Part shown: positions 3,646 to 26,298 of the stretch, one piece after another
Numbering within the stretch: the stretch's first letter is position 1
How the letters are laid out: each line of letters opens with the position of its first letter
Source of the DNA: Candidatus Nomurabacteria bacterium
Lineage (GTDB): Bacteria > Patescibacteriota > Minisyncoccia > Phycocordibacterales > SBAW01
Assembly: GCA_943348815.1 (NCBI GenBank)
Contig: CALQYT010000002.1
Span: 1-37,128 of the forward strand
DNA length: 37,128 nucleotides
Direction: 5' to 3'
Notes under the pieces: model-generated
The model's database searches: none
The model's input: only the letters and a program-made list of their open reading frames with translations
Told to the model about the DNA's origin: nothing
Program-made: the position numbers and the translations under genes

Positions 3646-3834
3646 ATGATTTTAGCATTTATACTCTCAGGCATTTTTATAGCCGCACTTTGGACTCCTC
3701 TTATTGCTGCGGCTGCTTTATTGTGGCGATGGAAGGATAGTAAATTTAATCTCTGGTTTGGCATATTTTGTTTAGTGGTGTTTGGGTTTGAAGTTTATTT
3801 TTGGGGAGATTTATTGATTGCACCTTTCCGCTAG
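3646..3834 (+). CDS. Small two-pass membrane protein, unknown function
   Basis: This 62-residue protein is almost entirely hydrophobic, with two membrane segments (about 3-27 and 37-58) joined by a short loop, RWKDSKFN. It starts 11 nt after the gyrA stop and is probably cotranscribed. Codons are T-rich compared with gyrA. No family was recognised. Confidence 0.55.
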   Translation: MILAFILSGIFIAALWTPLIAAAALLWRWKDSKFNLWFGIFCLVVFGFEVYFWGDLLIAPFR

Positions 3835-3840
3835 AAAATT

Positions 3841-3924
3841 ATGAAAGCCTTTTTATTTGATGCAGACGGGGTGGTGCTTAAGAAAAACAGCGAACTTTTT
3901 ACCAAACTCGGGTATTTTTCCTGA
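3841..3924 (+). pseudogene. N-terminal remnant of a HAD-like phosphatase
   Basis: The ATG opens a 27-residue reading frame beginning MKAFLFDADGVV, the DxDGV nucleophile motif I of haloacid dehalogenase phosphatases, and then meets TGA at 3922. The rest of the fold is absent, because the ArsR operator region follows directly. It is best read as a decayed gene whose 3' part was lost, perhaps when the regulator cassette arrived. A real 27-residue peptide is less likely. Confidence 0.65.
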
Positions 3925-3938
3925 GTATTCGCAATGTT

Positions 3939-3970
3939 TATTCTAGTATTTTGCAAAATTCCGTTATAGA
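3939..3970 (+). promoter_or_regulatory. Promoter and operator copy 1 of the ArsR-like regulator
   Basis: TATTCTAGTATTTTGCAAAA (3939-3958) is repeated exactly at 4227-4246. Its core TTTTGCAAAA is a perfect palindrome and lies just upstream of a -10 box, TATAGA (3965-3970), which ends 8 nt before the ATG at 3979. A repressor bound here would block its own promoter. Only the left outer arm TTCTA is present in this copy. Confidence 0.65.
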
Positions 3971-3978
3971 CTGAGAGT

Positions 3979-4257
3979 ATGGCGACGTCTAAAAATTATC
4001 GGCAGCTAGAGAGGATCGTAAAGGGGTTTGCGAATCACAGACGTATTGAGATTCTCGAACTCTTGCATCGTCAACCGGAATTGTCGGTGGATGAAGTGTC
4101 AGAAAAACTTTCAATAGGGTACATGAACGCCTCCGACCACATCCGCAAGCTTGCGATTGCCGGTTTGGTATTGAAACGGAATGACGGAAATACTGTGCGT
4201 CACAAACTCACGTCCCGTGCTCAATCTATTCTAGTATTTTGCAAAAAGCTAGAATGA
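3979..4257 (+). CDS. ArsR-type winged-helix transcriptional regulator
   Basis: This 92-residue protein consists of a single winged helix-turn-helix. It has the N-terminal helix RQLERIVKGFANHRRIEILELL, the recognition region VSEKLSIGYMNASDHIRKLAIAGLV at about 40-64, and the wing KRNDGNTVRHKL. No metal-binding cysteine pair is visible, so metal sensing is unlikely. It is paralogous to the regulator at 35064. The start is the ATG 8 nt after a TATAGA box, without SD. Its last residues are encoded by the second operator copy (4229-4254), so the gene is bracketed by its presumed binding sites. Autorepression and control of the gene at 4337 are inferred. Confidence 0.8.
   Translation: MATSKNYRQLERIVKGFANHRRIEILELLHRQPELSVDEVSEKLSIGYMNASDHIRKLAIAGLVLKRNDGNTVRHKLTSRAQSILVFCKKLE
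4229..4254. promoter_or_regulatory. Operator copy 2, full 26-bp palindrome
   Basis: The site reads TTCTA-GTA-TTTTGCAAAA-AGC-TAGAA, a two-arm palindrome around a perfect 10-bp core. It overlaps the last codons of the regulator gene. The same spaced architecture recurs at 25989-26014. Confidence 0.65.
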
Positions 4258-4264
4258 AAAAATG

Positions 4265-4299
4265 GTAATTTTGCAAAATTACAAAATATTGAGTATGTG
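4265..4299 (+). promoter_or_regulatory. Operator copy 3 and probable promoter of the 4337 gene
   Basis: GTAATTTTGCAAAATTAC (4265-4282) is an 18-bp perfect palindrome with the same TTTTGCAAAA core. TTGCAA (4271-4276) followed at 17 bp by TATGTG (4294-4299) could be the promoter, in which case the operator covers the -35. The upstream regulator would then control the next gene. Confidence 0.5.
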
Positions 4300-4336
4300 T
4301 TAGGGTGTTGGAGGTTGGAACAGAAAGGGGGACCCC

Positions 4337-4600
4337 ATGGCGGGGACTCGCAAACAACGCATTCGTCGTAAACAGCGGTCTGGTTGGCCGCGCGTCACTT
4401 ACGCTGCTGGCCACATTGGTCGGGCTGCAAAGATGCCTCCGAGAAAAGAAGAACCGGAAGAGCGGCCGGATTTTATGCGGACCTTACGGCCCAGTCCGCG
4501 CCGGACCCTTGCCGGTACCACCACAGGACGTCGCACCAGTACCACCACCAGCACCGGCGCTAGCGACGACGATGACGAGTCCTGGTGGCGTTTACGGTGA
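4337..4600 (+). CDS. Small basic protein with Thr/Ser-rich linker and acidic tail, unknown
   Basis: The 87-residue product has a strongly basic N-terminal half (RKQRIRRKQR, PPRKEE), a Thr/Ser/Gly-rich stretch at about 60-74, and ends in DDDDESWWRLR. It may bind nucleic acid, but no family was recognised. Three things support it as a real gene: an SD-like G-run (4327-4331) 5 nt before the ATG, a hairpin-plus-T terminator immediately downstream (4605-4632), and a possible operator-controlled promoter upstream. An overlapping frame from 4305 was considered and rejected. The start codon lies between complementary C4 and G4 runs, which suggests translational control. Confidence 0.5.
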   Translation: MAGTRKQRIRRKQRSGWPRVTYAAGHIGRAAKMPPRKEEPEERPDFMRTLRPSPRRTLAGTTTGRRTSTTTSTGASDDDDESWWRLR

Positions 4601-4604
4601 TTAC

Positions 4605-4632
4605 CTCACGACTTTGTCGCGAGTTTTAATTT
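4605..4632 (+). terminator. Intrinsic terminator after the 4337 gene
   Basis: CTCACGAC (4605-4612) and GTCGCGAG (4616-4623) form an 8-position stem with one A-C mismatch and a TTT loop, followed by TTTTAATTT. Confidence 0.6.
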
Positions 4633-4645
4633 GTATACTGTACCT

Positions 4646-4891
4646 ATGAAGGGAAACGTAGTCCCGCTGCCTGCTGGAGCGCCCGAAAAGGGCGAGGTGT
4701 ACCGGCACTACAAAGGAGATAGTTATAGAGTGGTGGAGCTGGCTCTCCATAGCAACGACGAAGAGTGGATGGTGATGTACGAGCCGCTGTATGAGAATCC
4801 GGACGCCCCATTTTTTACCCGTCCGTTGCGGGAGTGGTGGCAAGAGGTAGAATGGGAAGGCAAAAAAGTTCAGCGATTTACTAAAATATAA
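4646..4891 (+). CDS. DUF1653 domain protein
   Basis: This 81-residue protein matches the small DUF1653 family: GEVYRHYKGDSYRVVELALHS at the N-terminal side, then an EWMVMYEPLYE strand and FFTRPLREWW near the end. The fold is a small beta-rich domain of unknown biochemical role. The ATG at 4646 is chosen because a TATACT box (4634-4639) ends 6 nt upstream, giving a leaderless mRNA. A longer start from TTG at 4631 would overlap that box. It opens a run of five tightly packed genes to 7067. Confidence 0.8.
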   Translation: MKGNVVPLPAGAPEKGEVYRHYKGDSYRVVELALHSNDEEWMVMYEPLYENPDAPFFTRPLREWWQEVEWEGKKVQRFTKI

Positions 4892-4893
4892 CC

Positions 4894-5358
4894 ATGTCTC
4901 AATCTAAAGACTTTCCAGATTCGTTTTATCGCGTCACTACCAAGGGGCTTTGTGTCCGCGATGGCAGGGTGTTGCTGGCGCACGATTACTCTGGTCGCAG
5001 TGCTACTGACCCAGGCTCTGAATGGGAGTTGCCGGGCGGGGGTTTGGATTTTGGAGAAGACTTTGCCGAGGGGCTCAAACGAGAGGTCAAAGAGGAAATG
5101 GGTCTCGAAGTTGCATGGATCGACGAAAAGCCGACCTACTTGTGGACAACTAAACACGAAGCGGGTCGAGGTATGGAGTGGTACTGGGTCTGTACCGCCA
5201 TCTTCCGTTTTGATGTAGTCGATCTCAATTTTACTCCCACCAAGGAATGCCGAGAGATAAAGTTTTTTTCTAAAGAAGATTTGCAGGCAAATATTGATAG
5301 CCTCGCCTCACAGATTAAACCACTGGCAAAATTCTTTAATCCTCAGGACTTCAAATGA
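4894..5358 (+). CDS. Nudix hydrolase (MutT-like)
   Basis: Nudix enzymes hydrolyse nucleoside diphosphates linked to another moiety. The 154-residue protein has a complete Nudix box at 49-71: Gly49, Glu55, then REVKEEMGL at 63-71 with the metal-binding glutamates. The substrate cannot be read from sequence; nucleotide-pool sanitation is one option. The ATG lies 2 nt after the DUF1653 stop. A TAAAAT box (4882-4887) ends 6 nt upstream, so the gene may also be transcribed separately as a leaderless message. Its last codons overlap the next gene by 4 nt (ATGA). Confidence 0.9.
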   Translation: MSQSKDFPDSFYRVTTKGLCVRDGRVLLAHDYSGRSATDPGSEWELPGGGLDFGEDFAEGLKREVKEEMGLEVAWIDEKPTYLWTTKHEAGRGMEWYWVCTAIFRFDVVDLNFTPTKECREIKFFSKEDLQANIDSLASQIKPLAKFFNPQDFK

Positions 5359-5780
5359 AATCTCAAGATTTTGGGAATAAAGCAATTATTGTGGTTCGTA
5401 GGGACCTCGAGCCGTGGCAGATTACCAACACCATCGCACACTGCGCGGCATATCTCGGTAACAAGCTGGGTGAGAAATTTGATACCGGAGAATACTTTAT
5501 GAGTAAAGACGCTGTGCAACATCCCCGCAACTCGCAGTACGCCATCATTGTGCTTGAAGGCACTCAAGATCACCTTCGCGCGTTGGGTGCCGAAGCTCGC
5601 AAGCACGATTTATTGCACCTGGATTTCATCCGAGAGATGATTGACACCACTGACGATGCAGAACTGGAAGGGTGGGTCAGCAAAAAAGATGACAAAGATA
5701 TTGAGTATTTAGGGGTAGGGGTATTTGGCCCTAAAGAAATATTGAAAGAAATCAGTGGAAAATTTAAGTTGTGGAAATAA
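5355..5780 (+). CDS. DUF2000 family protein (peptidyl-tRNA hydrolase 2-like fold)
   Basis: The 141-residue protein has the DUF2000 pattern: AIIVVRRDLEPWQITNTIAH at 10-29, a SQYAIIVLEG strand at about 60-69, and YLGVGVFGPKEILKEISGKFKLW at the C-terminus. The family has the fold of archaeal-type peptidyl-tRNA hydrolase, but its function is not established. It overlaps the Nudix stop by 4 nt, implying translational coupling. Confidence 0.75.
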   Translation: MKSQDFGNKAIIVVRRDLEPWQITNTIAHCAAYLGNKLGEKFDTGEYFMSKDAVQHPRNSQYAIIVLEGTQDHLRALGAEARKHDLLHLDFIREMIDTTDDAELEGWVSKKDDKDIEYLGVGVFGPKEILKEISGKFKLWK

Positions 5781-25321: not shown

Positions 25322-25392
25322 GGGCGATTGGTGAAATGGTATCACAACGGTCTCCAAAACCGTTAGTGGAGGTTCGATTCCTCCATCGCCCG
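25322..25392 (+). tRNA. tRNA-Trp (anticodon CCA)
   Basis: The acceptor GGGCGAT/ATCGCCC with discriminator G73 and anticodon stem ACGGT/ACCGT with loop CTCCAAA give tRNA-Trp(CCA). The 3' CCA is not encoded. Its 3' half (25363-25392) overlaps the end of miaA on the opposite strand. Confidence 0.94.
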
Positions 25393-26271
25393 CAGAAAGT
25401 TTTTGACGTGCAAAAGGGCCTCTGATTTATTCCCGACCCAGTTAATATCTTTGTTGCGCACAAACCACCGCATCTGGCGTTTAGCGTATTGATTGATCTC
25501 GCGTTCCAGTTGCAACTTGAATTCTTGTTTAGTTAGTTTGTTTTGTAATAAACGCGCCAAGTAACGATACTCGAGCCCCAACTGCTCCATGCGTTTGTAC
25601 GACAAGCCGCCAGCGTGTAATTTTTTCGCCTCGGCTATCATCCCTGCTCCTATTCGTGAGAATAGGCGAATACGGATGTTCTTTTTTAGTTTTTCTGGGG
25701 TAGGGGATAGTCCAAGCCACAACACCTCGTACTTTGGTTCTGGGTTAGCGGGCGGATTTTTACCCAACGCTTTAGCTATCTCTATTGCACGCACCAAGCG
25801 GCGTGGGTTTTGCTTTTCGATAGTTTTGGCGCGCGCCGGGTCGATTTTTTGCAGCAGTGCGTACAGTTGTACCGCACTTTTTTTCTCTAGCTTTTTTCGC
25901 AGGGTAGGTTTGGGTGGCACCTGCGGGTAGCTCATGCGCCCGAGCAGCATGTCTACATACAGTCCCGTCCCACCTACTACCAATATCGTTCTATCGTTTT
26001 GCAAAATGTTAGAACATGCGCGGTCAGCGTGTTTAATAAAATCGTCCACTGAAAATTGTTTTTTAGGCGAGACAACGTCGAGTAGGTGATGCTTCACCCC
26101 CTGCATTTCTTTTTTGGTCACCTTGCCTGTCGCTATATTTAATCCTTTATAAACCTGCCGTGAGTCGGCCGAAATAATCTCCCCATTTATTTTTTTAGCA
26201 AGCCAAATACCCAAGGCGCTTTTGCCCGATGCGGTAGGACCAACAATGGCTATCACTTTCGGTTTAGGCAC
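25363..26271 (-). CDS. miaA: tRNA dimethylallyltransferase
   Basis: MiaA adds a dimethylallyl group to A37 of tRNAs reading UNN codons. The 302-residue protein has the P-loop GPTASGKS near the N-terminus, DSRQVYKG, VGGTGLYVDMLL, and the C-terminal WFVRNKDINW. The start at 26271 is a GTG placed 6 nt after TACAAG on the minus strand; a TTG at 26289 adds six residues and is the alternative. The last nine residues and stop are antisense to tRNA-Trp. Five of the seven tRNAs in the window carry A36-A37-A38, as MiaA requires. Confidence 0.92.
   Translation of the reverse strand: MPKPKVIAIVGPTASGKSALGIWLAKKINGEIISADSRQVYKGLNIATGKVTKKEMQGVKHHLLDVVSPKKQFSVDDFIKHADRACSNILQNDRTILVVGGTGLYVDMLLGRMSYPQVPPKPTLRKKLEKKSAVQLYALLQKIDPARAKTIEKQNPRRLVRAIEIAKALGKNPPANPEPKYEVLWLGLSPTPEKLKKNIRIRLFSRIGAGMIAEAKKLHAGGLSYKRMEQLGLEYRYLARLLQNKLTKQEFKLQLEREINQYAKRQMRWFVRNKDINWVGNKSEALLHVKNFLRAMEESNLH
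25989..26014. promoter_or_regulatory. Distal copy of the ArsR operator inside miaA
   Basis: TTCTA-TCG-TTTTGCAAAA-TGT-TAGAA has the same arms, core and spacing as 4229-4254, extended by one more pair (G...C). It encodes part of NILQNDRT in miaA. Twenty fixed positions make chance unlikely, but a function at this place is unproven. Confidence 0.45.
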
Positions 26272-26298
26272 GACTTTCTTGTAGCACAATTTGTAATT

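Follow-up and report, generated by a model that had tools for sequence, protein, structure and literature searches.

A 37,128-nt stretch of a Candidatus Nomurabacteria genome (hereafter the window) contains a small regulator gene with copies of one palindrome on both sides, the downstream copy being part of its own last codons, which raises the question of what such sites do and why they are kept there. The arsR-like gene (3979–4257, + strand) encodes a winged-helix protein of 92 aa that matches Pfam HTH_5 with 24.4 bits, above the cut-off of 22, and the MarR model is also above its cut-off (24.9 vs 24.6). The AlphaFold model (pLDDT 88.7) has an ArsR/SmtB fold with N- and C-terminal helices and superimposes on CadC and CzrA with TM 0.83–0.85, and the family profile matches HlyU and CzrA. 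The classical metal- or thiol-sensing residues, i.e. the alpha3 cysteines and the alpha5 His/Asp ligands (the latter judged by eye), were not found in the regulator; such residues are not universal among ArsR/SmtB members. The only cysteine, C88, is dictated by the palindrome and is replaced by Leu in other palindrome types. Two more ArsR-like genes on the same contig (35067–35291 and 111989) have far lower scores and no palindromic bracket, indicating that the bracket is a property of this subfamily and not of ArsR proteins generally.

The core TTTTGCAAAA is found exactly at 3949–3958, 4237–4246, 4269–4278 and 25997–26006 in the whole window. The first three had been noticed in a sequence-only reading of this DNA and the fourth is additional; with 0.13 copies per window expected by dinucleotide shuffling, and four copies reached in 0 of 100 shuffles, chance is no explanation. 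The 20-bp exact direct repeat which that reading described around the gene (3939–3958 and 4227–4246) was recovered and occurs nowhere else in the genome, and the 18-bp palindrome GTAATTTTGCAAAATTAC at 4265–4282 is indeed perfect. A site across the last codons is also present as claimed, but the core is too small a description of it, since the palindrome ATTCTAGTATTTTGCAAAAAGCTAGAAT extends over 28 bp (4228–4255, no strand assigned, 12 of 14 pairs) and takes in the final nine codons (ILVFCKKLE) plus the initial T of the stop codon. The operator is thus a palindrome of 26–28 bp, TTCTAN3TTTTGCAAAAN3TAGAA. In the upstream copy (3937–3968, + strand) the left arm TTCTA and the core are canonical (3939–3958, the 20 bp repeated exactly in the 3' copy) and the right arm is degenerate. 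The third copy (4265–4282, no strand assigned) has the core with TTAC arms, and its centre is 32 bp from that of the 3' copy; extra copies close to the cassette are found at about ten other loci.

Searched with the window protein alone, 26 of 60 related genomes contained relatives, and profile matches are present in 91 of the 297 genomes of the order, part of them being weaker generic ArsR genes. Within the genus a sharply separated high-scoring class is found in 14 of 35 genomes, with 1–4 members per genome, so that the family is absent from most genomes of the genus; several specificities can be resident in one genome. Most of the named loci come from Kaiser-, Taylor-, Nomura-, Adler-, Niyogi- and Liptonbacteria and related Parcubacteria; a few lie in bins with the labels Elusimicrobia, Deltaproteobacteria or Nanoarchaeota, where misbinning is possible. 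A viral origin was considered and rejected, as neither an exact site nor a confirmed relative was found in IMG/VR. The sequence-only reading had suggested looking for the same bracket in related genomes, and the homologues do carry the flanking copies: matched palindromes upstream and at the 3' end (one on each side, with 10-bp centres differing by at most 2 bases) are present at 96 of the 106 loci with full flanks, compared to 3 of 421 control genes from the same loci. In 85 loci the 3' palindrome has its centre exactly 13 nt ahead of the stop codon, corresponding to nine codons and the T of the stop codon, and in a second subfamily it is located just after the stop codon. The centres vary between loci (TTTTGCAAAA, TTCTTGAGAA, TTCTTAAGAA, TTCTGCAGAA, AACTGGAGTT), and the two copies of one locus agree at 22.4 of 28 positions, compared to 17.3 for shuffled pairings (at most 18.4 in any of 2000 shuffles). 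By these comparisons the bracket defines a Paceibacteria family of proteins with a predicted ArsR fold. One locus (L059 / L031, G029:C14:34551-35116) has three tandem upstream operator copies, spaced by 123 bp, before a single arsR, and the surrounding sequence is partly repeated.

The position of the 3' copy inside the gene could reflect the protein or the DNA. In a synonymous-codon test, where the encoded peptide is fixed and codons are drawn randomly by local usage, the C-terminal 28-mers have 11.3 of 14 pairs compared to 6.9 expected, with p<0.05 in 75 of 85 loci and a Stouffer z of 20.7 over 42 unique peptides, the loci not being independent. Because synonymous codon choice preserves the palindrome, it is the DNA sequence of the 3' copy, and not just the encoded protein, that is being maintained. 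The tail peptide (ILVFCKKLE, ILKFLRTLE and others) tracks the palindrome type, and the recognition helix (profile columns 44–50) varies with the palindrome centre, a relation that is confounded by shared ancestry.

In the upstream copies of the family, a -10-like box peaks 18 nt past the palindrome centre, and in 41 of 96 loci the distance from its end to the start codon is exactly 6 nt, compared to 2–18 loci at any other distance. The position of this box places the palindrome over the -35 region and spacer of an apparent leaderless promoter, which would be the usual geometry of repression. By this family pattern the window should have a leaderless promoter with the putative -10 box TATAGA (3965–3970, + strand), 8 nt before the start codon, although a consensus scan of 3840–4660 predicted no forward-strand promoter. 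The sequence-only reading had placed a -10 box beside the upstream core and a putative -35 box of the next gene at the third copy; the former agrees with the box beside the upstream palindrome in 41 of 96 loci, and the scan supported neither. The promoter copy of the window has a degenerate right arm, and the promoter is weak. The autorepression proposed in that reading is consistent with this box and with the matched brackets in 96 of 106 loci: an ArsR-fold repressor, probably a dimer, would bind the 26–28 bp palindrome, and the copy over the -35 region and spacer of its own leaderless promoter should cause it to repress itself, with a second copy written into its last nine codons.

If the 3' copy were the promoter operator of the next gene, repressor and neighbour would be controlled together, as the sequence-only reading suggested for the small ORF at 4337 in the window (no Pfam match). 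The gene that follows points the same way as arsR in 89 of 109 loci, and its start is usually no more than 100 bp away, but these genes are diverse and many start 20 bp or less from the stop codon, which leaves too little room for a promoter initiated at the site. Furthermore, 3' copies in general, and solo copies, are followed by no -10 enrichment, and the consensus scan found no promoter before the 4337 gene, making such control very unlikely. Looping between the two copies was also rejected, since the centre distances in 89 loci show no 10–11 bp phasing.

Copies are also found far from the regulator. In the window a solo full palindrome (25989–26014, no strand assigned), which is an exact match to the two-arm pattern and encodes CSNILQNDRT, is located inside miaA (25363–26274, - strand, start codon approximate), identified from its translation and from an orthologue that matches the MiaA equivalog model. 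The two-arm pattern, with up to three mismatches allowed and the arsR copies included, is found at 45 places in the 35 genus genomes, compared to 2 for the reversed control. Solo sites are present inside miaA, tsaD, tatD and mutY in the genus, and in other families inside tgt, mutY and the genes for DNA-3-methyladenine glycosylase, cysteine desulfurase, dihydroorotase and gamma-glutamate ligase. The intragenic solos, in about ten unrelated genes, share a single reading frame, SSILQNTR, and arsR uses the other open frame. Since sites picked by a pattern are biased, orthology was used as a check. The window genome and six others have palindromes at the same miaA position, with different centres and unchanged protein length, and in tatD the site coincides with a native loop, also with no change in length; tatD of G030 has another palindrome type in the same region, in another frame. 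The tsaD loop is 33–34 aa in most palindrome-free genomes and at least 38 aa in every palindrome carrier, and in G001 and G030 a clean insertion of 10 codons carries the palindrome.

The solos resemble the site of the resident regulator (21.1 of 26 positions) more than the sites of other genomes (19.0 of 26, p=0.014), and the tsaD solo of G007 matches its resident site exactly (26/26), with exceptions in G025, G028 and part of G015 and G009. Solos are present without a cognate regulator in G006, G014, G011 and G022, and G025 and G028 hold another type. Each genome has 1–8 palindrome copies; those between genes are placed between tandem or convergent genes, and many of them have no obvious repressed target. 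Four identical perfect intergenic palindromes, TTCTAACATTCTGCAGAATGTTAGAA, are found in G227 (L259-L262), and this 26-mer recurs at arsR genes and solos of several other families. The miaA palindrome of G021 has the same centre as a degraded arsR in that genome (L174:2900-3070, G021:C13), of which just the last 22 residues remain in frame and whose 3' palindrome, of the TTCTGCAGAA type, is intact, indicating that regulators can be lost while sites persist; as a general origin of solo sites, leftovers of lost regulators were rejected, this being the single clear remnant. The dispersed cognate copies thus lie mostly away from promoters, often in housekeeping genes and there in one fixed frame.

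On balance we find it probable that the window encodes an ArsR-like regulator that represses itself and has dispersed putative binding sites, mostly away from promoters, at which it may act as a roadblock. Repressor bound at the non-promoter copies would block transcription elongation and so dampen the message of its own gene or of the host gene. This step is preferred because no promoter signal accompanies the sites in and behind genes and the phasing gives looping no support; taken alone it is tentative, and we rate it slightly below even.

Sites found inside or downstream of genes, and rarely at promoters, might also serve chromosome organisation of the partition or nucleoid type, with the ArsR-like protein as an architectural binder that also regulates itself. 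In Tus/ter, SlmA and ParB/parS a DNA-binding protein likewise recognises scattered sites that are often intragenic, and the family profile has a weak match to the partition protein AspA (E 4e-5). It matches ordinary ArsR repressors much more strongly, and unlike these systems the ArsR-like family is not universal in its lineage, being missing from most genomes of the genus, with several specificities resident together and a rapid turnover of site types, so that a role of this kind appears highly improbable.

The main rival to the roadblock reading is that the palindromes are selfish, a mini mobile element of about 30 bp able to insert between genes and, in frame, inside them, the bracketed arsR being its protein-coding form and the solos dispersed or left-behind copies. 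The 10-codon insertion in tsaD of G001 and G030 and the longer tsaD loops of all carriers are what such an element would leave, as are the single SSILQNTR frame in about ten unrelated genes, the solos between genes and in regulator-free genomes, the different places of arsR in one genus, and the arsR remnant with its palindrome in G021. However, the miaA and tatD palindromes overlay native residues at unchanged length, there are merely 1–8 copies per genome, neither a transposase nor a target duplication was seen, and the closest homologues have common neighbours; we consider a mobile element unlikely.

The surroundings of the cassette bear on the same question. The sequence-only reading had pointed to a truncated HAD gene beside it and to excision or insertion by recombination between the repeats. 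A HAD-like ORF of 27 codons (3841–3924, + strand) does adjoin the cassette, with an intact relative of 190 aa in G007, but an intact HAD gene without the cassette was looked for at the same locus and none was found; the stub fits a past rearrangement and is no proof of insertion. A cassette moving by its repeats is not borne out by the common neighbours of the closest homologues, although arsR positions differ within the genus; some clades have stable arrangements, murC-arsR-rsmI and comM-arsR. The region behind gyrA (window 3646–5780) is a hypervariable gene island in the genus, where the order of NUDIX, DUF1653 and methyltransferase genes changes. It contains the cassette in the window, a NUDIX gene directly after gyrA in G026, and another NUDIX gene and DUF1653 in G018, and in G007 an arsR is located between DUF1653 and NUDIX genes elsewhere than behind gyrA; the region is too variable for an empty-site comparison to inform. 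The same gene gap is occupied as trpS-palindrome-aspS in G002 (L171 / L170) and as trpS-arsR-aspS in G206 (L137), which belongs to another family; the site types of the two differ, and the solo was rejected as a scar of the same element.

Compared to the ArsR/SmtB repressors CadC, CzrA, SmtB and HlyU, the regulator has the same fold (TM about 0.84 to CadC/CzrA), the small, dimer-type winged helix and, judging from its anatomy, a palindromic operator at its own promoter; it differs by the missing classical metal ligands, and its family by the second operator in its own last codons and the dispersed sites in housekeeping genes. Rickettsia palindromic elements (RPE) are in-frame palindromes of about 100–150 bp within unrelated protein-coding genes, with a recurrent peptide and tens of copies per genome (PMC10969869). 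The Paceibacteria palindromes are likewise in frame inside genes, with SSILQNTR in about ten of them and the 10-codon insertion in tsaD, but they are 26–30 bp compared to about 150 bp, have few copies (1–8 per genome), partly overlay native codons and match the putative binding site of the resident regulator. Dispersed palindromes of a similar kind, 20–40 bp, are the REP elements and further small palindromic repeats (PMC3733652); compared to these, the Paceibacteria palindromes are not extragenic only, are of low copy number and are tied to a bracketed regulator.

No description of the bracket arrangement was found in the open-access literature searched, most subscription papers being outside its scope. 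The protein fold is ordinary; an operator in the protein's own C-terminal codons, together with dispersed in-frame copies, is not, and operators inside coding sequence are unusual. Since the operator is a fixed part of the regulator's final nine codons throughout a large bacterial group, the protein tail and the DNA site must co-evolve, and the family offers a natural specificity code of recognition helix against palindrome centre, supplying many candidate repressor-operator pairs from uncultured bacteria. The dispersed in-frame copies tie coding palindromes to a specific DNA-binding protein, and the question of junk or site therefore becomes testable. It is conceivable, if somewhat doubtful, that the coding palindromes in Paceibacteria housekeeping genes are the sites of the bracketed ArsR-like regulator and spread with it as a selfish regulator-operator system. 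If so, a selfish regulator would write its own operator into proteins, namely into its own C-terminus and into surface loops of MiaA, TsaD, TatD, MutY and Tgt, and coding palindromes of the RPE kind would for the first time have a cognate DNA-binding protein.
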